Positions 17,196 through 60,613 of a stretch of DNA of 64,000 nucleotides are shown here, in pieces. The position numbers were made by a program, and so were the translations under genes. The stretch is from the NCBI RefSeq assembly GCF_021462415.1, contig NZ_JAKEDS010000003.1:462743-526742 (forward strand), given 5' to 3'. Under the pieces are notes generated by a model. It worked only from the letters and a program-made list of their open reading frames with translations. It had not been told where the DNA came from and did not search any database. This stretch comes from Rhodohalobacter sp. 614A. Lineage in GTDB: Bacteria; Bacteroidota; Rhodothermia; Balneolales; Balneolaceae. Position 1 is the first letter of the stretch; every line of letters starts with the position of its first letter.

Positions 17196-18329
17196 TTACA
17201 GCTTCTTGCTGTACATTCTGTATCGCTTATCTACGGTTCCGCCAATGCGTTCTGCTACACGAAGCATTTGGATATTATTTTCTAAAATCCATCCGACTTC
17301 AGAGGAATAGAAATCTTTCTTCAATCCATTCTGTATCGCTTCCCTGTGCATCAAAACATCAATTCCTTTTCCCTGATGCTCCGGCAGAACTCCCATTAAT
17401 GCCGTTCTTATTTTGTTGATTTTACGCTTGTTCCACAAAAGCTTAAAAATTCCAAACGGCAAAAGGCGTCCGTTCATTTTCCTAAAAATCTGGTTGTAAT
17501 CGGGCAGGGCAATGGAGAATCCAACCGGTTTTCCATCGAGTTCGGCAACGTGGGCAAAATCGTCATCAACAATGGTTTTCAAATCAGCAGCAAGTGCGTC
17601 GAATTCTTCTTCACTAAGCGGAATAAATCCCCAGTTATTCTTCCAGGCTTCGTTAAATATTTCGCGAATGATGTGAACTTCATCTTTTATCTTGCGCAAA
17701 TTGATTTTCCGAATCTTCAGGCCCGGTAGCCTTTTTCTTACAATCTGAACCGCTCTCTCTGCTCTTTCCCGATCTACGCTGCTTTGCGTGACCAGAAACG
17801 TTAACAGATCCATCTCCTTTTCATATCCCGTTGATTTTATCAGCTTATCATAATACGGTTTATGATAGGGCATCAGGATAGATGGATATTTTTCAAAACC
17901 ATCAACCAAGATTCCGATCTCATCCATCATACCCGGATTGGATGGTCCGAGAATATTCTCCATTCCCTTGTCTCGCAGCCAGTCTTCGGCCACTTTAAAA
18001 AGCAGGTTCGCCGTATTTTGATTATCAATGGATTCAAAGAAACCAAAAAAACCGGTTTTTGTCTTATGATAATCGTTATACCGGTGATCGATGATTGCAG
18101 CAATCCGGCCGGCAATTTCGCCATTTAATTTTGCCAGAAAGAGAACGATTTCCGCGTTATTATAGAAAGGATTTTTCTTTTCGTCGATGAGCTTCTTTTG
18201 CTCCATCAGAAGCGGAGCTACCCAATACTTATTGTGAGAATAATGACGATACGGAAATTTGATAAACTCTTTCCGGTCCTCGTCAGACGTGATAATAGAA
18301 ATTTCGTGGGTATTGGGCCTTTCTTTCAC
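17196..18329 (-). CDS. GNAT-family N-acyltransferase, candidate bacterial ceramide synthase
   Basis: A 377-residue protein of the long GNAT-like family. Visible segments are FPYRHYSHNKYWVAP near the N-terminus, GRIAAIIDHRYNDYH, TGFFGFFES near residue 88-96, and LGPSNPGMMDE near 130. The C-terminal ALMGVLPEHQGKGID segment is the acyl-CoA pyrophosphate-binding loop of GNAT enzymes. The gene begins with GTG immediately after the TAA of the serine-palmitoyltransferase-like gene, so the two are tightly coupled. In Caulobacter a GNAT-like protein beside spt is the ceramide synthase (bCerS); context and length suggest the same role here. Annotation as an ordinary acetyltransferase is the alternative. 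Confidence 0.75.
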   Translation of the reverse strand: MKERPNTHEISIITSDEDRKEFIKFPYRHYSHNKYWVAPLLMEQKKLIDEKKNPFYNNAEIVLFLAKLNGEIAGRIAAIIDHRYNDYHKTKTGFFGFFESIDNQNTANLLFKVAEDWLRDKGMENILGPSNPGMMDEIGILVDGFEKYPSILMPYHKPYYDKLIKSTGYEKEMDLLTFLVTQSSVDRERAERAVQIVRKRLPGLKIRKINLRKIKDEVHIIREIFNEAWKNNWGFIPLSEEEFDALAADLKTIVDDDFAHVAELDGKPVGFSIALPDYNQIFRKMNGRLLPFGIFKLLWNKRKINKIRTALMGVLPEHQGKGIDVLMHREAIQNGLKKDFYSSEVGWILENNIQMLRVAERIGGTVDKRYRMYSKKL

Positions 18330-19577
18330 TTAGGAATTAATATCAATCAGTGACTGACCATTTTCATCAATAATACCGTGCTTGATGCCAACTTTTTTGA
18401 AAGCGGCTAAAATTTTATCCAGATGTTCATCCGTGTGAGTTGCCATATAGCTTGTACGTACAAGGGCCTGGCCACGCGGCACGGCAGGTGGCACAACTGC
18501 ATTCACATATACGCCGGCTTCAAAAAGGTCTTTCCAGAATTCGAAGCAGCTAATCATATCTCCGATTACAACCGGAATAATTGGAGTTTGGCTGGTCCAA
18601 ACATTAAAACCAAGAGCTTTCAACTCCTTTCTCATATAGTTGGAAATTTCTTCGAGTCGTTCGAGTCTCCATGGTTCTTCCTGCAGAATTTCTAGTGATT
18701 TTAGAACAGTCGCCACATTTGCAGGAGGCATACTCGCACTAAAAATATGTGCCGGTGATTTATGGCGAACATATTCGATAACTTCTCTGTCGCCGACGAG
18801 AAATCCTCCAAGAGATGCAAAAGATTTAGAAAAAGTACCACTGATAAGATCCACCTTGTCCATGAGTCCAAAAACAGAAGCCGATCCTCGTCCTCCCTCT
18901 CCCACAACACCAATAGCGTGGGCATCATCAATGTAGAGACCTGCATCAAATTCCTCAGCCAGTTCTACCAACTCAGGGATTTTGGCGAGCGTACCAGACA
19001 TTGAGAAAACGCCATCAGTAACAATAATTTTCCCAACCGATGAATCTTCTCGTTCAAGAAGAGATCGCAGGTGATCTATATCGTTATGGCGATATCGAAC
19101 TGTTTTTGCATTTGAAACCTGGGTACCAACTACAATACAGGCGTGATTATCTTTATCAGAAAAAATAACATCGTTTCGATCGGCAACGGTTTGAATGGAA
19201 CCTTCATTGGTTTGATAACCGGTGCTAAACAGCACACAGGAATCCTTCCGCATAAACTTTGCCAGCTTCTCTTCAAGCTCCAGATGGAGGTCAAGAGTAC
19301 CATTCAAATAGCGGGAACCCGTACACCCTGTTCCGTATACTTTAATTACATTTTGGGCGGCTTCAATTGTCCGGGGATCGTTGGTGAGTCCGAGATAATT
19401 ATTAGACCCGGCCATGATCACATCCCTTCCCTCGATGTTTACGGTTGTTCCGTCTGTGGCTTGTAAAGGTTTAAAATATGGATAAAGTCCACTTTCCTTT
19501 ATTTCCTCAGCCGTAGTAAACTCGTAGGCCTTTTTAAATACACTTCTGTGGGAGGTTTCGGCTTTAATATCGCCCAT
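18330..19577 (-). CDS. spt: Alpha-oxoamine synthase, serine palmitoyltransferase-like
   Basis: A 415-residue PLP enzyme that condenses an amino acid with an acyl-CoA/ACP. The PLP lysine is Lys251 in GTFSKSFASLGG. His145 (DKDNHAC) is the ring-stacking residue, and Asp218/His220 lie in YIDDAHAIGVVG. The N-terminus (YPYFKPLQ, then GSNNYLGLT) resembles Bacteroidota serine palmitoyltransferases more than KBL or BioF. Serine would give 3-ketosphinganine; cysteate would give the sulfonolipid precursor known from relatives such as Salinibacter. Neighbouring glycosyltransferases, the GNAT gene and an SDR support a lipid role over biotin or threonine metabolism, since no bio genes are present. Confidence 0.85.
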   Translation of the reverse strand: MGDIKAETSHRSVFKKAYEFTTAEEIKESGLYPYFKPLQATDGTTVNIEGRDVIMAGSNNYLGLTNDPRTIEAAQNVIKVYGTGCTGSRYLNGTLDLHLELEEKLAKFMRKDSCVLFSTGYQTNEGSIQTVADRNDVIFSDKDNHACIVVGTQVSNAKTVRYRHNDIDHLRSLLEREDSSVGKIIVTDGVFSMSGTLAKIPELVELAEEFDAGLYIDDAHAIGVVGEGGRGSASVFGLMDKVDLISGTFSKSFASLGGFLVGDREVIEYVRHKSPAHIFSASMPPANVATVLKSLEILQEEPWRLERLEEISNYMRKELKALGFNVWTSQTPIIPVVIGDMISCFEFWKDLFEAGVYVNAVVPPAVPRGQALVRTSYMATHTDEHLDKILAAFKKVGIKHGIIDENGQSLIDINS

Positions 19578-19645
19578 TATAAATCGTTGCTTTTATTTTA
19601 AACAAGTAAATATACCGAGTATTCCGCTTCAATCAAATTTGAGAT

Positions 19646-20770
19646 TCAATTTGAAACGCTTTTGACAATACTTTTCAGAAATGAGATATATCGATCGACA
19701 ACCGTATCCCAGCTATAATTTTTCTGGACATACTCCTTCGACTTCTCAGACAGATCATCAAGCTCATGTACTAGAACATAATCAATTTTTTCAGCAAAAA
19801 GATCCGCTTCTCCATGCGGAATCCTGTACCCGTTTACACCCTGCTCAATCACATCTTTTATTCCTTCCAGATCGGATGCTATGGCAGGTACATTTGCCCG
19901 GTTTGCTTCCAACAAAACAATTCCGAATCCTTCCATGTCCCCTTCAACAGGAATATTCGGCATCACAAAAAGGTCGGCAGCTGCGTAACATGCATGCAAT
20001 ATATTTCCAGGCTGCTTCCCAACAATAACAATTTTTTCTTTCTGATCAGAATTTTCTCTCGCTTTTAAAATATTCTCATGCTCAGGGCCATCTCCGACAA
20101 TCAAATAAACAGCGTCGGTTTCAACCTTATTAAATACTTCCTGGATAAACCATTCATGGCCCTTTCTCTTCACCTGGCGGCCCACTGAAAGTAAAAGTTT
20201 CTTATGGGTCAGATCAATCCCAAATTCTTTTTCAATAATTTGCCGTGCCTCAATTTGTTCAGGTAGCTTTTTTACCACTTTCATATCAAACCCATTTGGC
20301 AGAGCTACTCCTTTTGCTGGTGCCATTCCTCTTTTAATACATTCATCCCGTGTGGCTGAGGAAACCGAAATAACCCCGTCCAGTTTCTTAAAAACCGACG
20401 GCACATACCATTGATACAAAGCCACCGGTTTCGTCACATCCTGCCCGTGATTAATTGTAACAAAGGGCACATTTGGTTTTTTAAACATCGCCGGCAAAAC
20501 TCCGGCCGTTACCATTGAGGAAAAAAGGACTACATCAGGTTTTGTTTTCTTTATTTTTGAAGGAATTCTCCAAAGGAGGCTGACTAAGAAGAAAAAAGCT
20601 TTAACCCCGATAAATCTCCAGGATGTTTGCATAATAATAGCATCCACTTCCACATCGTCCCGACGGTGCAAGGCATCCACCAACTGTATGCTAACGTTTT
20701 GCATTCCTCCAACACTTTTAAGGGGTTTGCCTTTTGGGGGGTGCAGATGTGAAATATAGAGTATGCGCAA
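19646..20770 (-). CDS. Family 4 glycosyltransferase
   Basis: A 374-residue GT-B enzyme. It starts MRILYISHLHPPKG; the donor-binding half has LLLSVGRQVKRKGHEWFI and then EGFGIVLLEANRANVPAIA with the GT4 EX7E motif. The first codon is TTG at 20770, four bases after the stop of the upstream glycosyltransferase; the next ATG is 22 codons in and would cut into the fold. It is the second gene of the four-gene lipid operon and probably adds a sugar to the sphingoid or ceramide product. The donor is unknown. Confidence 0.87.
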   Translation of the reverse strand: MRILYISHLHPPKGKPLKSVGGMQNVSIQLVDALHRRDDVEVDAIIMQTSWRFIGVKAFFFLVSLLWRIPSKIKKTKPDVVLFSSMVTAGVLPAMFKKPNVPFVTINHGQDVTKPVALYQWYVPSVFKKLDGVISVSSATRDECIKRGMAPAKGVALPNGFDMKVVKKLPEQIEARQIIEKEFGIDLTHKKLLLSVGRQVKRKGHEWFIQEVFNKVETDAVYLIVGDGPEHENILKARENSDQKEKIVIVGKQPGNILHACYAAADLFVMPNIPVEGDMEGFGIVLLEANRANVPAIASDLEGIKDVIEQGVNGYRIPHGEADLFAEKIDYVLVHELDDLSEKSKEYVQKNYSWDTVVDRYISFLKSIVKSVSN

Positions 20771-20774
20771 TGTG

Positions 20775-21905
20775 TTATTTCTCAGCCTCCAAAACTTCTT
20801 TGTAGTAACCTAAAAGCTTACCGTTTATCGAGTCCCAACTATATTTTTTTGATTTTTCCAGAGATGCATTTGCCATTCGTTTGCGCAATTCCGGATCAAC
20901 AATCAATTTCTCGATTAAGGTAAAAAATTTATCCGATCTTTCAACGGGTGCCCGAAATCCGTTTTCTCCATGATCTACCAACGATTTACTACCCGTAGCA
21001 TTCGCTACAACAGCCGGCAATCCGCTGGCCATGGCTTCAAGGGTTACATTTCCAAAAGTTTCAGTATCTGAGGGAAAAAAGAAAATATCGCTGGATGCAT
21101 ACGCTTTGGCAAGATCTTCTCCTTTTAAAAATCCGGTAAAAAGGGCCTTTGGCAGTAATTCCATCATCCCATCCTGGGCGGGTCCATCGCCCACAACCAT
21201 TGCCTTTACTTTTTTATACTTCTTTTTGAGCCGATTCACAACATCAGCGAAAAGGCGAAGGTTTTTTTCCCAAACAAGGCGGGAGACAAAGGTCACTATA
21301 ATATCGCCATCATCAAAACCATGTTCCCGTCTCCATTGCATATCTCTTTTTTGGGGATTGAAAAGCTCGCTGTTTATCCCTCTCTCCCATAACTTTAATT
21401 CTGCCGTAATATCTTTTTCGACCAAAATTTCCGCCATAGATTTTGAGGGCACATACACTTCCCTGCACTTTCCATAAAACCAAGCCAAAAATTTCCACAA
21501 CGTGGGCTCTAATACGGAAAGCTTGTAGTACTTCAGGTAACTCGAAAAATGGGTGTGATAGGAAGAAACAACCGGAACCTCTTTTTTTTCTGCCCATCGT
21601 AATGCCTTAATCCCCAGAATATCAGGTGTGGCAAGGTGGACTAAATCCGGGTTAAACGCTTCCAGTTTTTTTTGCGCTTTTTGGGGAAAACCGGTTGTAA
21701 ATCTGTACTCGGGTCTGCCGGGCATCTTAACAGAAGGGACTGCAATGAGAGTACCAATGTGATTAAAAGCCGGTTTCGGAATAGTCGGCCCAAAAATCAG
21801 TACTTCAACCCCATTTTGTTGAAGGTAATCTACCAATCGGTTTAGTGTGAGGGAGACGCCATCACGAATGTGATTATAGTTGCCGGTAAAAATTGCTACC
21901 CTCAT
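20775..21905 (-). CDS. Family 4 glycosyltransferase, MgtA/SqdX-like
   Basis: A 376-residue GT-B enzyme starting MRVAIFTGNYNHIRDGVS at ATG 21905. The frame runs open to 22043, but that would overlap the divergent SDR gene and adds no conserved sequence. PVVSSYHTHFSSYLKYY, WERGINSELFNP and DTETFGNVTLEAMASGLPAVV are the hallmarks of diacylglycerol/lipid glycosyltransferases such as MgtA and SqdX. It is the first gene of the operon running to the GNAT gene. A membrane-lipid acceptor is likely; sugar identity is not known. Confidence 0.88.
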   Translation of the reverse strand: MRVAIFTGNYNHIRDGVSLTLNRLVDYLQQNGVEVLIFGPTIPKPAFNHIGTLIAVPSVKMPGRPEYRFTTGFPQKAQKKLEAFNPDLVHLATPDILGIKALRWAEKKEVPVVSSYHTHFSSYLKYYKLSVLEPTLWKFLAWFYGKCREVYVPSKSMAEILVEKDITAELKLWERGINSELFNPQKRDMQWRREHGFDDGDIIVTFVSRLVWEKNLRLFADVVNRLKKKYKKVKAMVVGDGPAQDGMMELLPKALFTGFLKGEDLAKAYASSDIFFFPSDTETFGNVTLEAMASGLPAVVANATGSKSLVDHGENGFRAPVERSDKFFTLIEKLIVDPELRKRMANASLEKSKKYSWDSINGKLLGYYKEVLEAEK

Positions 21906-21998
21906 TCCGTCATATTGTTTCAAATGCAATGGCCATATTTGTATCTTAGGCTGATGATCAGCCATATTCAAATGAAAGCATGTGAATATACAAATTAA

Positions 21999-22973
21999 AT
22001 GAATGTATTTGTTACCGGAGGAACCGGTTTTATTGGCAGCCACCTTGTCGATTCTTTAATCGATGATGATAAAACCGACAAGATCAAGTGCCTTGTTCGG
22101 AATAGGGAAAAATGGCTGGAGGGCAAATCGTACCAAAAAATAGACGGCGACCTCCATTCCATTCGAACCATAGAAGAGGCTTTACATGATGTTGATACGA
22201 TTGTGCATCTTGCCGGAGTAGTAAAAGCTCCAACCCAGAAAGAGTTCGATTTTGCAAACGTAGAGGCAACCGAACACCTGGTACGACTGGCCAATCGATC
22301 GGGCGTTAAAAAAATGGTGATTCTTTCATCTCTTGCCGCAGCAGGTCCCAGTAAAGGAAAACCACTTGCTGAAGAAGATCCCATGAAGCCCATCAGCATG
22401 TATGGGCGGTCCAAGAAAAAGATGGAAGAGATGATTCACAAAGTGGCTAATCCCGATTTATCGGTAACTATTTTGCGGCCGCCGGCGGTCTATGGCCCGC
22501 GGGAAGACCAGATTTACACTCTTTTTAAAATGATGAGCAAAGGTGTGGCGCCAATGGTTGGTGACGGTGAAAAACCTGAACTTTCGATTATTTACGTACA
22601 AGACCTGATCCAGGCAATTCACAAATCAATCTCTCAGAAAGAGAAAGGGGTTCACACCTATTTTGTTTCGGGGGATGAGGTCACAAACTGGAATCGCATT
22701 AACGAAATTGTACAGACAGTTTTGGGAAAGAAAACAATCCCGTTACACATCAAACCGGATTGGGTAAAAAAAATAGCCGGAATTGTAGAAACAACAGCAA
22801 CATTTTTTGGTTCATATCCCGTTGTTAACAGGGATAAAGCGAATGAAATGATTCTCGAATGGGTGTGTAATCATCAAAAAGCAAAAAAAGAGTTACACTA
22901 CCAACCCCGGTATACCCTTGAAGAAGGCATCTCAAGAACATTGCGATGGTATAAAAAACATAATTGGTTATGA
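21999..22973 (+). CDS. Extended SDR: NAD-dependent epimerase/reductase, CerR candidate
   Basis: A 324-residue Rossmann protein with the NAD motif GGTGFIGSHL at residues 7-16 and the extended-SDR active site YGRSKKKMEE (the Y-x3-K form) near 139-148. It is divergent from the lipid operon, with only 93 bases between starts, so the two may share a control region. In Caulobacter the ceramide reductase CerR is an enzyme of this type encoded close to spt; a nucleotide-sugar epimerase is the main alternative. The stop overlaps the next gene in ATGA. Confidence 0.8.
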   Translation: MNVFVTGGTGFIGSHLVDSLIDDDKTDKIKCLVRNREKWLEGKSYQKIDGDLHSIRTIEEALHDVDTIVHLAGVVKAPTQKEFDFANVEATEHLVRLANRSGVKKMVILSSLAAAGPSKGKPLAEEDPMKPISMYGRSKKKMEEMIHKVANPDLSVTILRPPAVYGPREDQIYTLFKMMSKGVAPMVGDGEKPELSIIYVQDLIQAIHKSISQKEKGVHTYFVSGDEVTNWNRINEIVQTVLGKKTIPLHIKPDWVKKIAGIVETTATFFGSYPVVNRDKANEMILEWVCNHQKAKKELHYQPRYTLEEGISRTLRWYKKHNWL

Positions 22974-24514
22974 ACAGACGTCTGAAAACATTTTTACTTT
23001 TTACCACACTTTTATTTCTCCCTGTTGGAATTTTACACGCTCAACTTGTTAAAGATCTCGGCCGGCAAATTGAAGTTCCCAACATTACGAACCTGCAAAG
23101 TTCGGCAACCCACCTTTATGTTCTATCAGAAAGTGAAGGGCTCGTTGTTTTTCGTGCTCTGAGTGATTCCCTCCAATGGCTTTACTCTTCAACCGGCATG
23201 CAACAACGTGGCCACACGCTCGAAAGTGATATCCGTTTTGCCTATCTCTACGGAGATGCCCGAAGGCTTACGGTTATTGAACCGACCTCTGTACTGGGCG
23301 TTTATTCATCCACAGTATTGCCGGATGTTCCGCACTCGGCCAAACGCATTGGCAATGATCTTTTCATTGCACTTGGCAACTCCGGATTTGGACGCATTAG
23401 CCTGGAAACACCGGAAAGTGTAGATGCTGGCTTCGAAACCATTCATGAAAACAACACGCTGGACCTTGCAACGGATGGAGGACAAACTCTATTTGTACTA
23501 CAAGCGGGAGGAATTCTCAACATTTATACTGTTCGCGAAGGAAGGGTGAACCTGAGTGAAGAAGTTGAAGTCGGACACAACCTGAATAAATTATTTTTGA
23601 TTGAAGGCGAATTAATGGGATCAGATAGCGATGGAAATATTTATCTGATCAATTCAGACGGTGATACGCAACAGATTGCCGATGTTCTTAATTCTGTTGA
23701 TAAAATTTCAACATGGAAAGACAGAACGATTGTTCGTACAGAAAATGCCGATCTCTGGATGGAGGATTCGGCCGGGAATTTCAACCGCTGGAAATCGGGA
23801 GAGCGTTCAGGAAATTATTTCACAATATCTGAAGACACATTTTGGATTACTGAGTACAACAAAGTGGTACCTATTGTGGAACAAACCTCGCAGCGGCAAC
23901 CCTCAAATGCTGGCACATCCACATCCGGATCTTTTCAACTCAGCGAAATCAATAATGTGGTTCTTCCCTATCCCCGGCCATTACTTCTGCCTATAGAATT
24001 TGAATCGGAGGTAAACTTAAATGATGTCTCCTTGAGTTACAGCGCTTCGTTTGATAATGCCCAAATTCGCGGCAACACATTTTACTGGCAGCCCACGGCT
24101 ACCCAATCCGGCCGACACAACGTAACGATTACCGCCTCGCTGGCTGACGGGCGATCGGACAGTACTCAATTTATTATCAACTTAAGGCCATTTAATTCAC
24201 CTCCACGATTTACTCCTACCCGCCCAATTTCTATACCGGTTGGCGAAATGTTTGAACTTCAGATTAGCGCCATTGACCCGGACGGAATGGATCAATCCCT
24301 TAACCGATACCTTGGAGTGGACATGCCGAACGGCGCTCACATCAACGAACAAACCGGAAGATTTACCTGGGAACCCTCGGAAAGAGAGGTCGGAGAACAT
24401 TCATTCCGCGTAATTGCGACCGATCAATACGGAGCTGCTGCTTCCCAGGATTATACTATTAATGTTGTGGAACTCTCCGCTCAATCAGGTGAAGAAGATC
24501 TGTTTGAACAGTGA
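22970..24514 (+). CDS. Secreted surface protein with propeller-like N-terminus and Ig-like C-terminus
   Basis: A 514-residue exported protein. The signal peptide ends near HAQ (residue ~25). The next ~300 residues contain repeated short beta-strand segments of the kind seen in beta-propellers. Residues ~330-500 look like two cadherin/Ig-like putative-binding modules (FYWQPTATQSGRHNVTITA and FTWEPSEREVGEHSFRVIA). No anchoring domain is evident at the C-terminus. ATG 22970 overlaps the stop of the SDR gene, and its own stop overlaps the GTG of mutY. Function unknown. Confidence 0.75.
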   Translation: MNRRLKTFLLFTTLLFLPVGILHAQLVKDLGRQIEVPNITNLQSSATHLYVLSESEGLVVFRALSDSLQWLYSSTGMQQRGHTLESDIRFAYLYGDARRLTVIEPTSVLGVYSSTVLPDVPHSAKRIGNDLFIALGNSGFGRISLETPESVDAGFETIHENNTLDLATDGGQTLFVLQAGGILNIYTVREGRVNLSEEVEVGHNLNKLFLIEGELMGSDSDGNIYLINSDGDTQQIADVLNSVDKISTWKDRTIVRTENADLWMEDSAGNFNRWKSGERSGNYFTISEDTFWITEYNKVVPIVEQTSQRQPSNAGTSTSGSFQLSEINNVVLPYPRPLLLPIEFESEVNLNDVSLSYSASFDNAQIRGNTFYWQPTATQSGRHNVTITASLADGRSDSTQFIINLRPFNSPPRFTPTRPISIPVGEMFELQISAIDPDGMDQSLNRYLGVDMPNGAHINEQTGRFTWEPSEREVGEHSFRVIATDQYGAAASQDYTINVVELSAQSGEEDLFEQ

Positions 24515-42551: not shown

Positions 42552-43016
42552 TTATCCATTCACCGGTTTAAAGATGTAGCGCTCATCAAAATCTACATCA
42601 AATTTTTCCAACAACCCGGTGTATTCTTCAAGAAAAGATTTTCTTTGATGGTGTTCTTTTTGATTCATGATATAATGATAGACCCGGTCGATATGGCTTC
42701 GGCTATATGAAAACGCCCCATACCCCGCTTGCCATCTGAATTTTTTCTTTACAAACCCTTTTTCATTGATCCACTTTGTTGATTCTCCTTTTACAACTTT
42801 CATTAATTCTGAAATATGATCCACTGGTTTGAAGCCAATAAAAATGTGCAAATGATCGGGCATACCATTGATGGCAATCATTTTATGGGATTTGTTTTGA
42901 ACGATACCAGTGATGTATTTATAAAGCTGCTGTTCCCAATCAGGGTGAATCAGGCTAACACGGTTTTGAACGGCAAATACGAATTGGATGTAGATTTGGG
43001 TGTAGGTATCAGCCAT
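42552..43016 (-). CDS. IS200/REP-associated tyrosine (Y1) transposase
   Basis: A 154-residue HUH single-strand transposase. The metal-binding His pair is in GMPDHLHIFIG near residues 54-64, and the probable nucleophile Tyr lies in GYGAFSYSRSHIDRVYHYI near 98-116. Length, and the flanking REP-like pairs instead of an accessory tnpB gene, point to the domesticated RAYT class that mobilises REP palindromes rather than a full IS200. The frame is intact with an ATG at 43016. Confidence 0.88.
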   Translation of the reverse strand: MADTYTQIYIQFVFAVQNRVSLIHPDWEQQLYKYITGIVQNKSHKMIAINGMPDHLHIFIGFKPVDHISELMKVVKGESTKWINEKGFVKKKFRWQAGYGAFSYSRSHIDRVYHYIMNQKEHHQRKSFLEEYTGLLEKFDVDFDERYIFKPVNG

Positions 43017-55968: not shown

Positions 55969-57330
55969 ATGTCTAACGTGATAAAAATTAAGCGTGGGGT
56001 AGACATCAAACTAATTGGAGAAGCAGAAAAAGAATTTGCTTCACCGCTCCCCATAGAGACTGCCGCCTTAAAACCAGATGATTTTTACGGGGTCCGCATG
56101 AAACTTGCCGCCAGAGAAGGCGACGAAGTGAAAGCCGGCACCCCTTTATTTTTTAATAAAGATGACGATCAGGTTAAATTCTGTTCTCCGGTCAGCGGGG
56201 AGGTTGCCCAGGTAATTCGTGGTGCCAAACGCAAAATTTTAGAAGTGCGTGTTCTCGCTGATAAAGAAACCCGGTATGAGGATTTCGGCGCAGCAGATCC
56301 CACAACTCTCGAGAGAGAAGAGATTGTCTCAAAATTAGCGGCATCGGGTTGCTGGTCTTTCATTCGGCAACGTCCTTATAATACCGTTGCGGATACAACG
56401 AAAGAACCAAAAGCTATTTTCATTTCCGGCTTTGATTCCGCTCCCCTCGCACCCGACTTGGGTTTTTTACTTGAAGGACAAGAAGAGGAGTTTCAGGCAG
56501 GGATTCATGCACTTTCCAAACTGACGTCCGGAAAAATTCATCTTGGACTAAATGCAAAAGAAACACCTGCTAAAATCTTTACTGAAACGAAAGGCGTAAC
56601 CATTACCCGTTACGACGGCCCTCACCCGGCAGGTGTTGTTGGCGTACAGATCGCAAAGATCGATCCCATCAATAAAGGTGAAACCGTATGGACACTTACG
56701 CCGGAGCATGTGGTAATCATGGGGCGATTATTCCTGACCGGAAAATATGACGCCCGAATTAATATTGCGCTGACCGGTTCTGAAGTAAAAGAGAAAAAAT
56801 TCCACCACACCATTCTCGGAGCGCCCGTCAAGCATTTTGTTGAGAATAATATTACAGAAGGTAACAACCGGATCATATCCGGAAATGTTCTTACCGGCAC
56901 CAAAATCACGGAAGATGGATATCTTGGCTCTTTTGAACGCCAGGTAACCGTAATCCCCGAAGGTGATGAACCCGAATTGTTTGGATGGTTAATTCCCAAA
57001 CCTGATAAGTTTAGTATCTCCAGAACCCTGCCATCATGGTTCATGAGAAAACTGGGTGATGTGCAATACAAACTCGACACCGGCCAACATGGAGAACGTC
57101 GTGCATTTGTAGTTACCGGCCAATACGAACAAGTATTTCCGTTCGATATCTACCCCGTTCAGTTGCTCAAAGCTATTATCACCCAAGACCTTGACGGCAT
57201 GGAAAATCTGGGACTTTATGAAGTTGTAGAAGAAGACTTTGCCCTTTGCGAAGTTGTCTGCACTTCTAAAATACCGGTTCAAAGTATCGTAAGAGAAGGA
57301 CTTGACTTGATGAAAAAAGAAGTAGGTTAA
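55969..57330 (+). CDS. nqrA: Na+-translocating NADH:quinone reductase subunit A
   Basis: A 453-residue cytosolic subunit of the six-subunit respiratory Na+ pump; it binds quinone/inhibitor near the membrane. It opens IKIKRGVDIKLIGEAE, the biotinyl/lipoyl-like domain includes VKAGTPLFFNKDDDQVKFCS, and HPAGVVGVQIAKIDPI lies in the Rossmann-like part. It is the first of six contiguous genes. Confidence 0.96.
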   Translation: MSNVIKIKRGVDIKLIGEAEKEFASPLPIETAALKPDDFYGVRMKLAAREGDEVKAGTPLFFNKDDDQVKFCSPVSGEVAQVIRGAKRKILEVRVLADKETRYEDFGAADPTTLEREEIVSKLAASGCWSFIRQRPYNTVADTTKEPKAIFISGFDSAPLAPDLGFLLEGQEEEFQAGIHALSKLTSGKIHLGLNAKETPAKIFTETKGVTITRYDGPHPAGVVGVQIAKIDPINKGETVWTLTPEHVVIMGRLFLTGKYDARINIALTGSEVKEKKFHHTILGAPVKHFVENNITEGNNRIISGNVLTGTKITEDGYLGSFERQVTVIPEGDEPELFGWLIPKPDKFSISRTLPSWFMRKLGDVQYKLDTGQHGERRAFVVTGQYEQVFPFDIYPVQLLKAIITQDLDGMENLGLYEVVEEDFALCEVVCTSKIPVQSIVREGLDLMKKEVG

Positions 57331-57358
57331 TCGCCAGAAAAAGTTTGAAAGTTTATTC

Positions 57359-58549
57359 ATGAAAGCATTAAATGATTTTTTAGAAAGTAAAGTGAAACCC
57401 TACTTCGAGGAAGGGGGAAAGCTTGAAAAATATTGGCCGGTGTACGACGGATTGGAAACATTCTTGTTTGTGCCGGGCCATCCTACAGAGCAAGGTGCTC
57501 ATATTCGTGACGGAATTGACCTGAAACGAACCATGAATACCGTAATCATGGCACTTATTCCCTGTTTGTTGTTCGGGATGTGGAATGTGGGGTATCAACA
57601 TTATCTGGCTCTTGGAATCGACGCTACCTTTATAGACCAGTTTGTATTCGGAGCTATTAAAGTACTGCCCATCGTTGTGGTTTCTTATGCCGTTGGGTTG
57701 GGTGCTGAATTCCTCTTCTGTATTATCAAAGGCCATCAGATTAATGAAGGTTATCTTGTTACCGGGATGCTGATTCCCCTCATCATGCCTGTAGACATTC
57801 CCCTCTGGATGGTAGCCCTCTCCTGTATTTTTGCAGTAATTATTGGTAAAGAAGTATTTGGCGGAACCGGGATGAACATTTTCAACCCCGCCCTTCTGGC
57901 CCGTGCATTTGCGTTCTTTGCGTATCCGTCTTTCATGTCCGGAAATGATGTTTGGATTAACACTTCCGTTCGCGACGGACAATCTGTAGTAGATGGATTT
58001 TCCGGAGCTACCGTGCTGGGAGAACTTGCTACCGCTGGTTCAACCCATTACTCGGTATTGGATGCTATTATTGGTACTATTCCTGGATCAATTGGTGAAA
58101 CATCCGTTATTGCAATTGCTCTCGGAGCCGGACTTTTAATCTTTACCGGTATCGGAAGCTGGAGAATTATGCTGAGTGCCCTTGCAGGAGGCGCTGTAAT
58201 GGGCATAATTTTTAATGCCCTGGCACCTTATGCAATTACCGAAGTTCAGCAAGCGTTTATGGCTGTACCTTTCTGGCATCAGTTGGCAGTGGGTGGTTTT
58301 GCCTTTGGAATTGTCTTTATGGCTACAGATCCTGTAACGGCCTCACAAACAAGTACCGGAAAATGGATCTATGGCTTTTTAATTGGATTTTTGGCAATAA
58401 TGATTCGAATCTTCAACCCCGCCTATCCCGAAGGCGTGATGTTAGCCATTCTTTTTATGAATACAATGGCACCGCTGATCGATCATTATGTGTTGCAGGC
58501 AAATATCAAAAAACGAAAAAAACGAATTTCTTTAAAAGCGAGAGCCTAA
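57359..58549 (+). CDS. nqrB: Na+-NQR subunit B
   Basis: A 396-residue integral membrane subunit with about ten helices. It carries a covalent FMN on Thr218 in DGFSGATVLGE and binds riboflavin; Na+ passes through it. Starts 28 bases after nqrA. The FMN is attached by ApbE, encoded downstream at 62039. Confidence 0.97.
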   Translation: MKALNDFLESKVKPYFEEGGKLEKYWPVYDGLETFLFVPGHPTEQGAHIRDGIDLKRTMNTVIMALIPCLLFGMWNVGYQHYLALGIDATFIDQFVFGAIKVLPIVVVSYAVGLGAEFLFCIIKGHQINEGYLVTGMLIPLIMPVDIPLWMVALSCIFAVIIGKEVFGGTGMNIFNPALLARAFAFFAYPSFMSGNDVWINTSVRDGQSVVDGFSGATVLGELATAGSTHYSVLDAIIGTIPGSIGETSVIAIALGAGLLIFTGIGSWRIMLSALAGGAVMGIIFNALAPYAITEVQQAFMAVPFWHQLAVGGFAFGIVFMATDPVTASQTSTGKWIYGFLIGFLAIMIRIFNPAYPEGVMLAILFMNTMAPLIDHYVLQANIKKRKKRISLKARA

Positions 58550-58552
58550 CTC

Positions 58553-59272
58553 ATGGATGTAAATAAGAATAGTTACACATTTATGTTCGCCGCCATTATG
58601 GTGATCGTTGTTGCGGCCCTTTTATCCTTTGCTGCAACAACCCTGAAACCTTACCAGGATGAAAACGAACGTCTCGAAAAAATGCAGAGTATCCTCAGTT
58701 CTATTAAAGTGGAAGTGAGCCGCGAGGAAGCCGCTGAGTTATATCCGGAATACATCGTCCAGGAACTGGTAGTGAGCAATCACGAAGAAAAACCCGGCAT
58801 TGAAGCTTTCAATGTAGACCTGACCAAAGAAGTCCGCAAGTCTAACATTGAACGTGAAGCTCCACTTTACATAGCAGAAAAAGAAGGGCAACGATTTTTT
58901 GTAATCCCGATCCGGGGCACCGGACTTTGGGGGCCAATCTGGGGATATATTTCTCTTCAGGAAGATGTATCTACACTTTATGGCGCTGTATTTGATCATC
59001 AGGGAGAAACACCCGGCCTGGGAGCTGAAATTGCTACAGCCGCTTTTGAAACTCAATTTGAAGGCAAAGAAATCCTGGATGATTCAGGCAATCTTATAGG
59101 GATTGATGTTCGAAAAGGCGACGCTTCAACCCAATATCAGGTAGACGGAATTAGCGGAGGTACTATTACCTCCGAAGGAGTGGAAGCAATGATTCTGGAT
59201 TGTCTGGAATCTTACATCCCATTTCTGAAAGATTATGCCGCAACATATTCAACCGCAGGTTCAGAACTTTAA
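58553..59272 (+). CDS. nqrC: Na+-NQR subunit C
   Basis: A 239-residue protein with one N-terminal membrane helix (~10-30) and a periplasmic FMN domain. The covalent FMN site is Thr204 in DGISGGTITSEG. GLGAEIATAAF is also conserved. Three bases after nqrB. Confidence 0.97.
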   Translation: MDVNKNSYTFMFAAIMVIVVAALLSFAATTLKPYQDENERLEKMQSILSSIKVEVSREEAAELYPEYIVQELVVSNHEEKPGIEAFNVDLTKEVRKSNIEREAPLYIAEKEGQRFFVIPIRGTGLWGPIWGYISLQEDVSTLYGAVFDHQGETPGLGAEIATAAFETQFEGKEILDDSGNLIGIDVRKGDASTQYQVDGISGGTITSEGVEAMILDCLESYIPFLKDYAATYSTAGSEL

Positions 59273-59285
59273 TTAAGGTAAAACT

Positions 59286-59990
59286 ATGGCAGAAGAAGTA
59301 CTAGAAAAAGAAGCTGTTGAACAGGAGGCAAAGGTCACTACAAAGACCCGTGAGCCCCTGTTTTCTAAAAGAAACCGAAAACTGATTAGTGATCCGTTTG
59401 ATGACGATAACCCGATTACTGTACAGGTTTTGGGAATTTGTTCGGCACTCGCTATTACTGTAAAACTCTATCCGGCTGTAGTGATGGCTATATCGGTGAT
59501 GTTTGTACTGGCTGCCGGTAACGTCATTGTCTCTTTGATGAGAAATTTCATCCCAAACCGAATCCGAATCATCGTTCAGCTTGTGGTTGTAGCTGCACTT
59601 GTGGTTTTGGTAGATCAGGTGTTAAAAGCTTTTGTTTACGATGTATCAAAAGAACTGTCGGTGTTCGTGGGATTGATTATCACCAACTGTATTATTATGG
59701 GGCGGCTTGAAGCCTTTGCTCTTGGAAATAAACCATGGAGATCGTTCCTGGATGGTATTGGTAATGCATTTGGCTATGGTATCATTTTAATCATTGTAGC
59801 TTTCTTCCGCGAATTACTTGGTTCAGGAACTTTATTTGGCCTCCAGATTATTCCGGACTCCTGGTACATCGTAAATGGCGGCTTTTACAGTAACAACGGA
59901 TTTATGCTGCTCCCCCCCATGGCACTCATCACCGTGGGTATCATCATTTGGGTACAGCGGTCACGAAATACTAAACTCATAGAGGAGTAA
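59286..59990 (+). CDS. nqrD: Na+-NQR subunit D
   Basis: A 234-residue membrane subunit. The iron-cluster cysteines that sit between NqrD and NqrE are in [16 protein letters not shown] and [17 protein letters not shown]. An extra ~30-residue charged cytosolic N-terminus ([15 protein letters not shown]) is longer than usual for the family. Confidence 0.96.
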
Positions 59991-59995
59991 GAAGT

Positions 59996-60613
59996 ATGCA
60001 AGAACTTTTAAACATATTCGTAAAGTCGATTTTTGTTGAGAACATGATTTTTGCCTACTTCCTGGGCATGTGTTCTTATCTCGCAGTATCCAAAACGGTG
60101 AAAACAGGTGTAGGTTTGGGAGCGGCTGTTATCTTTGTGATGGCCATCACTGTTCCGGCCAATTATCTTCTTGAAAACTATGTACTGCAAGAAGGAGCAC
60201 TGGCATGGCTTGGACCACAATTTGCAGCCGTAGACCTTAGCTTCCTTTCCTTTATTATTTTCATTGCGGTTATTGCTTCAATGGTACAGCTTGTGGAGAT
60301 GGCCGTCGAAAAATTCGCGCCTGCACTCTATAACTCATTAGGTATTTTCCTTCCGCTTATTGCAGTAAACTGTTCCATTCTCGGTGGTTCTCTGTTCATG
60401 CAGGAGAGGAATTACGCAACAATCCTTGAAGCTTCAGTGTTTGGTTTTGGAAGTGGAATAGGGTGGTTTTTGGCAATTGTAGCTATCGCTGCTATCCGCG
60501 AGAAAATCCGTTATTCAAACGTGCCGGCTCCACTCCGTGGACTGGGAATCACATTTATTGTAACCGGCCTGATGGGCATCGCTTTCATGTCGTTTATGGG
60601 AATCAAGTTATAA
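59996..60613 (+). CDS. nqrE: Na+-NQR subunit E
   Basis: A 205-residue six-helix subunit, partner of NqrD in the inverted pair. The cluster cysteines are in [12 protein letters not shown] near 26 and [15 protein letters not shown] near 120. A good ribosome site (agaggag) precedes the ATG, five bases after nqrD. Confidence 0.97.

Follow-up and report, generated by a model that had tools for sequence, protein, structure and literature searches.

We analysed a window of 64 kb, the whole stretch of DNA under study, from the genome of Rhodohalobacter sp. 614A (G000:C3:462743-526742; genome 4.69 Mb), and report on a candidate ceramide and glycosphingolipid locus in it. Reading of the open reading frames (ORFs) placed five genes at positions 17196-22973, a span of 5778 bp. 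Four of these lie on the minus strand and are transcribed in the order GT2, GT1, a gene for a serine palmitoyltransferase-like (Spt-like) pyridoxal 5'-phosphate (PLP) enzyme and a gene for a Gcn5-related N-acetyltransferase (GNAT) protein, GT1 and GT2 being GT4-type glycosyltransferases (GTs). The fifth gene, for an extended short-chain dehydrogenase/reductase (SDR), lies on the plus strand and is transcribed in the opposite direction (Table 1). A sequence-only reading of this DNA had described such a set, packed in under 6 kb, with the Spt-like and GNAT genes abutting as TAA-GTG and two GT4 glycosyltransferases preceding them on the same strand; the ORFs, their Pfam matches and the junction itself (TTCC TAA GTG AAA) bore this out. 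The same reading had the extended SDR facing the operon. The SDR assignment held, but its orientation is better described as divergent, back to back with GT2. The minus-strand genes are closely spaced, with 4 bp between GT2 and GT1, 68 bp between GT1 and the Spt-like gene and 0 bp between the latter and the GNAT gene. GT2 probably begins at the ATG that is codon 47 of its longest frame, because that frame in full would extend 45 bp into the SDR gene. A consensus scan of the 93 bp that separate GT2 from the SDR gene gave no promoter signal above that of shuffled sequences, and promoter and terminator scans were no richer than shuffles (8 vs 12.9 and 7 vs 6.9, respectively).

Table 1. Features of the five-gene locus (positions are those of the window)
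Feature	Position	Strand	Details
GNAT protein, bCerS-like, predicted N-acyltransferase	17196-18329	-	377 aa, GTG start; Acetyltransf_1 at 221-363
Spt-like alpha-oxoamine synthase	18330-19577	-	415 aa, ATG start; stop codon abuts GNAT start
GT1, GT4-type glycosyltransferase, accessory	19646-20770	-	374 aa, TTG start; Glycos_transf_1 + Glyco_transf_4
GT2, GT4-type glycosyltransferase	20775-21905	-	likely ATG start 21905; longest frame to 22043, 422 aa; Glycos_transf_1 + Glyco_transf_4
Divergent intergenic region GT2/SDR	21906-21998		93 bp
Extended SDR, CerR-like	21999-22973	+	324 aa; Pfam Epimerase + 3Beta_HSD

Homology of the Spt-like, GNAT and SDR proteins

The best NCBIfam model of the Spt-like protein, on which Pfam found Aminotran_1_2, was NF047600 (CFB, that is Cytophaga-Flavobacterium-Bacteroides, serine palmitoyltransferase) at 497 bits; a Caulobacter Spt passes another model, NF047599 (686 vs cut-off 500). 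Its best solved relatives were structures of Sphingobacterium multivorum serine palmitoyltransferase (SPT; E 2e-121), as compared to 6e-91 for the best entry named as 8-amino-7-oxononanoate synthase (BioF) or 2-amino-3-ketobutyrate ligase (Kbl) and 4e-64 for cysteate acyltransferase, and its identity to Spt of Bacteroides and Parabacteroides was 44-46%. The protein carries the PLP lysine, Lys251, in the GTFSKS motif of serine palmitoyltransferase (PMC10196870) as well as the stacking His145, but these residues are not discriminating because they are shared with Kbl and with the cysteate C-fatty acyltransferase SulA. The active site of SulA is described in PMC9304779 as differing from that of Spt by Lys281 (A. 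finegoldii numbering) instead of alanine. The window protein has Ala281 together with Ser88 (the position of S. multivorum Ser81), and the same pair was present in 6/6 other Spt or Spt-like rows, as against Lys and Ala in 2/2 SulA rows and Asn and Val in the Kbl row, the columns being those of our own alignment and not of a figure in that paper. In the tree, the protein joined other Spts and neither Kbl nor SulA, with a weak deepest split (81/38). We regard the enzyme as most likely an Spt, predicted to condense serine with a long-chain acyl thioester.

The GNAT protein had been proposed as a counterpart of Caulobacter bCerS, and it proved to be a full-length homologue, with 34-35% identity over 373-376 residues (E ~1e-76), falling into one clade with it (99/97) and not among unrelated acetyltransferases. 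The comparison was made with four Caulobacter sp. genomes (Root343, 602-1 and two metagenome-assembled genomes), not with C. crescentus; spt was found in each and the regions of three were read. The bCerS homologue was picked ~7 kb from spt, at the position expected of CC_1154 by the gene numbers of PMC11324152, and the GNAT family has a single member per genome in 4/4 of these genomes. YghO is listed beside CC_1154 in PMC9386255, and the YghO protein of E. coli shares 36% identity with the window GNAT and 44% with the Caulobacter protein. No NCBIfam model matched the window GNAT at E 0.001, and Pfam found only the C-terminal Acetyltransf_1 domain; an alignment of 25 members has 21 invariant columns, which are spread over the full length and include the N-terminal half outside the Pfam domain. 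The protein is bCerS-like, and N-acylation is its predicted activity. In the tree of 45 GNAT proteins the 99/97 clade that holds the Caulobacter sequences is otherwise made up of the window's order and class, and the exact place of Caulobacter bCerS in it is unsure because of its long branch. That these sequences (L055, L056, L057, L091) nest among those of the window's class would be compatible with an ancient gene transfer, with the reservation that the long branch imposes.

The SDR has a nucleotide-binding motif, TGGTGFIG, at 6 and a YxxxK motif, YGRSK, at 135. With Caulobacter CerR as query, the window SDR was the top match in its own genome (3.7e-20; next 2.1e-8), and in the reverse query the SDR beside spt was the top match in 4/4 Caulobacter genomes, narrowly so in G061 (3.1e-21 vs 8.7e-19). 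The relationship to CerR suggested by the sequence-only reading was thus upheld by reciprocal best matches, while a single CerR clade was neither proved nor rejected: constraining 37 SDRs to one clade cost 0.8 log units (approximately unbiased (AU) test, p 0.254). In the tree, 31 SDRs linked to Spt, drawn from the order, from other families and from Aureispira, grouped in a single clade (99/95); close to it stood a Caulobacter-Roseomonas-Rubrobacter group (94/84). Membership of the window SDR in CerR is likely, with a keto intermediate of ceramide synthesis as its presumed substrate. The Caulobacter CerR homologue at L055:7880-8824 starts nearly at its nucleotide-binding motif and has no signal peptide visible by eye, in contrast to the periplasmic CerR of PMC11087976.

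Conservation of the cluster and comparison with known systems

Conservation was examined across the order (Balneolales) in 58 genomes, own genome included. The GNAT gene was present in 58/58. Spt lay at most 400 bp from it in 55 of the 58 and at 553 bp in one more, the remaining two lacking an Spt match on the contig concerned; the SDR was within 8 kb of GNAT on the same contig in 50, and in the other 8 it was on a different contig or found as a fragment only. Gene-by-gene comparison of 20 regions from 20 genomes revealed that the order and orientation of SDR, GT2, Spt and GNAT are kept in 20/20. A GT1 orthologue was present in 17/20 (L077 and L078 are without GT1, and in L074 another GT4 gene takes its place), so GT2 looks like a core member and GT1 an accessory one. 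Chance neighbourhood was rejected in view of the order-wide linkage in 58 genomes and the gene order in 20 regions. Our literature search found no paper on the sphingolipid genetics (serine palmitoyltransferase) of Balneolales, and the arrangement GT2-GT1-Spt-bCerS with a divergent CerR was not met among the literature matches listed.

Outside the order we read 27 regions centred on GNAT from other families of the phylum, hand-picked from the better-scoring matches listed and not random (L133 excluded). Spt adjoins GNAT in 15/27. In 9/27 the pair stands opposite a related SDR, and none of these nine regions has a GT1/GT2 match between SDR and Spt-GNAT. The same three families occur on an Aureispira plasmid, where the SDR is divergent and is followed by Spt and GNAT, and are adjacent on a Rubrobacter plasmid, where the SDR is co-directional; neither has a GT1/GT2-like gene between. 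According to the introduction of PMC11324152, bacterial cerS is always in another operon than spt. PMC11334938, citing another paper, says that in Bacteroidota that produce sphingolipids the three genes are not near one another, and elsewhere calls them often clustered. Given the Spt-GNAT adjacency, neither printed generalisation holds in these genomes, provided that the GNAT protein counts as CerS.

The ceramide genes of Caulobacter are spt, cerR, acpR and aasR (CC_1162 to CC_1165) and cerS/bcerS (CC_1154). The locus had been said to use exactly the Caulobacter families. All three window proteins are indeed homologous to Spt, the GNAT-type bCerS and the extended SDR CerR, but "exactly" goes too far: bCerS is ~7 kb from spt in the Caulobacter loci read whereas in the window it abuts a CFB-type Spt, and acpR and aasR, for a specialised acyl carrier protein and an acyl-ACP synthetase, are also required in Caulobacter (PMC11324152, PMC9386255). 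No ligase-like ORF of at least 120 aa was seen by eye at 12-30 kb of the window, and an acyl carrier protein gene would be below that length limit. Two GT4 genes precede Spt-GNAT in the window; the Caulobacter loci were not searched for glycosyltransferases. A search for Caulobacter CpgD by way of a solved structure returned generic nucleotidyltransferases only.

The yghO-aasR-epi-acpR-spt cluster of E. coli likewise has all three backbone families. It differs in that yghO is opposite to the other four genes, the Spt is gammaproteobacterial and comes with an acyl carrier protein, and no glycosyltransferase is annotated in the stretch viewed. The window Spt is of the same CFB type as those of Bacteroides, Parabacteroides and Sphingobacterium, but no GNAT or SDR is annotated within 12 kb of the Bacteroides and Parabacteroides Spt on the records read. 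A match on a Methylocystis plasmid was set aside, as neither GNAT nor SDR is annotated there and a polyketide synthase is adjacent.

The best NCBIfam matches of GT2 were phosphatidylglycerol and diacylglycerol glycosyltransferases (155 and 113 bits) and that of GT1 was BshA (102 bits), all under cut-off. From the order-wide co-localisation it is plausible that GT1 and GT2 glycosylate ceramide. Among the bacterial ceramide glycosyltransferases in print are BF9343_3149 and ZMO1957, to which GT1 and GT2 are likened by proposed role only, the transfer of sugar to ceramide, and not by sequence. PMC12260241 records a glycolipid in 8/8 Fodinibius (Balneolaceae) strains with data and two unidentified glycolipids in its new species; these are natural candidates for the products, and equally could be glycosyl diacylglycerols. 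A glycosyltransferase gene is also placed immediately upstream of Spt-GNAT in regions from two other families of the class (L129:9582-10715, PF13528, and its 45% identical homologue L115:4851-5906); a glycosyltransferase of this type was not found in four other Spt-GNAT regions of the class.

On the same strand downstream of GNAT, after a gap of 156 bp, is a fumarase-like gene (named by eye). At the other end the SDR gene overlaps the gene of an Ig-domain protein (by Pfam) and is the first of a run of genes that includes a mutY-like one (by eye). The Ig-domain gene (22964-24514) overlaps the SDR stop codon and stands beside the SDR in 20/20 regions of the order. Elsewhere in the window, a 154-aa ORF at 42552-43016 looks by eye like an IS200-type transposase, and a plus-strand gene run at 55969-60613, continuing to ~61951, resembles by eye an ordinary nqr (sodium-pumping NADH:quinone reductase) set.

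Proposed pathway and competing explanations

We propose that the locus is probably a (dihydro)ceramide cluster with built-in glycosyltransferases, of which the backbone genes very probably make ceramide. Spt would make 3-ketosphinganine, and the adjoining bCerS-like GNAT protein, homologous to a protein required for ceramide in Caulobacter, would N-acylate the Spt product. The divergent CerR-like SDR would reduce the 3-keto group, either before or after acylation, an order that is disputed (PMC11087976, PMC11324152). GT2 would probably add the first sugar to ceramide and GT1, which is sometimes missing, the second. The direct Spt-GNAT junction suggests co-transcription and perhaps translational coupling, such that the keto-base may pass straight to the N-acyltransferase. 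The sequence-only reading of the enzymes and of the cluster was in these respects largely supported; the pathway as such was already known.

Several points weigh against this proposal. The Spt-like protein, at 497 bits, does not reach the NF047600 naming cut-off of 640, which Bacteroides finegoldii Spt passes at 700, and for this reason it is filed as Spt-like, most likely Spt; two other cluster Spts were also under this cut-off (491 and 504 bits). The free tree puts two other Caulobacter SDRs beside the Caulobacter CerR group (92/50). GT1 and GT2 match generic GT4 models only, under NCBIfam cut-offs in the listed rows, and other lipids are possible acceptors. A close GNAT homologue is absent in 11/182 genomes without the cysteate enzyme, and the contingency of the two genes, given below, ignores kinship, as does its p-value.

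The backbone genes might make ceramide while the glycosyltransferases, as mere neighbours, act on a glycerolipid, polyprenyl phosphate or surface glycan. The best NCBIfam matches of GT2 and GT1, namely lipid glycosyltransferases and BshA under cut-off, are in keeping with this, and the nine SDR-Spt-GNAT clusters elsewhere in the phylum without a GT1/GT2-like gene between indicate that the general module does not include these enzymes. However, GT2 is found between SDR and Spt in every one of the 20 regions of the order, and a glycosyltransferase of another family stands directly upstream of Spt-GNAT in L129 and L115; we hold the bystander role to be the less likely one. Less probable still is that the SDR acts on a sugar or another substrate and is tied to the downstream Ig-domain and mutY genes, with the reduction carried out by a classical SDR elsewhere in the genome, in the manner of BT_0972 of Bacteroides thetaiotaomicron, which has 3-ketosphinganine reductase activity (PMC9278070). 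The SDR does overlap the next plus-strand gene, such neighbours are kept in most regions inspected, its best NCBIfam match is the sugar-epimerase-like model HpnA (under cut-off), and the tree left a single CerR clade undemonstrated. Yet HpnA is also the top model for Caulobacter CerR, with which the window SDR shares reciprocal best matches, and in the nine regions and the Aureispira plasmid, where related SDRs stand with Spt-GNAT, no Ig-domain or mutY genes were detected downstream.

It is very improbable that the cluster is a sulfonolipid locus, with cysteate as the substrate of the PLP enzyme and capnine as that of the N-acylating GNAT protein. This reading draws on the relatedness of the families and on the presence of a cysteate acyltransferase in the genome, but the SulA orthologue is encoded elsewhere, at G000:C1:1642182-1643408 (L009:4180-5409; 28eh at 3e-142 vs SPT at 4.5e-72), and has the SulA-type Lys where the window protein has Ala, which indicates that this cluster is not the sulfonolipid locus. 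The cysteate enzyme has an orthologue in 34/35 genomes of the window's family (a partial gene in G010), with none in G001 (81% complete), as compared to 0/23 genomes in the other four families of the order, where GNAT is present in 23/23. Counts outside the order agree: among 254 phylum genomes (GNAT at E <= 1e-80 and cysteate enzyme at 1.2e-119 or better, thresholds set after the lists were seen), a close GNAT homologue was found in 171/182 genomes without and 9/72 with a cysteate enzyme orthologue, and in 3 of these 9 (G264, G301, G309) a GNAT-family gene abuts the second, Spt-like synthase. These counts associate the window GNAT with Spt and not with cysteate. The sulfonolipid reading was rejected on the separate SulA gene, Ala281, the family distribution and the phylum counts. 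It is even more remote that the PLP enzyme is 2-amino-3-ketobutyrate ligase or 8-amino-7-oxononanoate synthase beside an unrelated acetyltransferase. Kbl- and BioF-type models score 397 and 385 bits on the window protein, under their cut-offs. The Kbl gene is usually paired with a threonine dehydrogenase gene, and it is another synthase of this genome that adjoins a threonine dehydrogenase-like gene (L008, by eye); moreover, SPT structures rank first, residues 88 and 281 are SPT-type and the neighbour is a bCerS homologue. With SPT as the best solved relative and SPT-type residues at the discriminating positions, this reading too was rejected.

The genome probably makes sulfonolipids as well as sphingolipids. 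It carries a second bCerS-family GNAT gene at G000:C2:54274-55419 (L046:6275-7420), whose product is 29-31% identical to the window GNAT. In the search of relatives in the 58 genomes, second GNAT copies were listed in the window's family only. The phylum sample includes 36 genomes of this family, every one with the cysteate enzyme; of these, 22 had an orthologue of the second GNAT (E <= 5.8e-122), 4 a different second copy and 10 none. The second GNAT is a possible candidate for the sulfonolipid N-acyltransferase, and is offered only as a lead. In another family of the phylum, f18 (G062, G067, G072, G077), GNAT is absent in three genomes and a trace in one, and synthase matches are weak (E 2e-33 to 2e-43); these genomes probably make neither sphingolipids nor sulfonolipids.

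Implications for Balneolales and bacterial ceramide synthesis

Beyond the ceramide cluster proposed for Rhodohalobacter sp. 614A, a wider scheme can be put forward tentatively, as something short of probable: that this is an order-wide glycosphingolipid operon, in which GT2 and GT1 make the mono- and diglycosylceramide that are the unidentified glycolipids of cultured Balneolaceae, that coupled Spt-bCerS is common in the phylum, which would make N-acylation an integral part of de novo synthesis there, and that Caulobacter bCerS came from this lineage by gene transfer. The cluster itself offers a probable origin for unidentified glycolipids in Balneolales. A naturally paired Spt and bCerS whose reductase is transcribed separately is also a convenient system for asking whether acylation comes before reduction and, if the glycosyltransferases do act on ceramide, GT1 and GT2 would be two more candidate bacterial ceramide glycosyltransferases.

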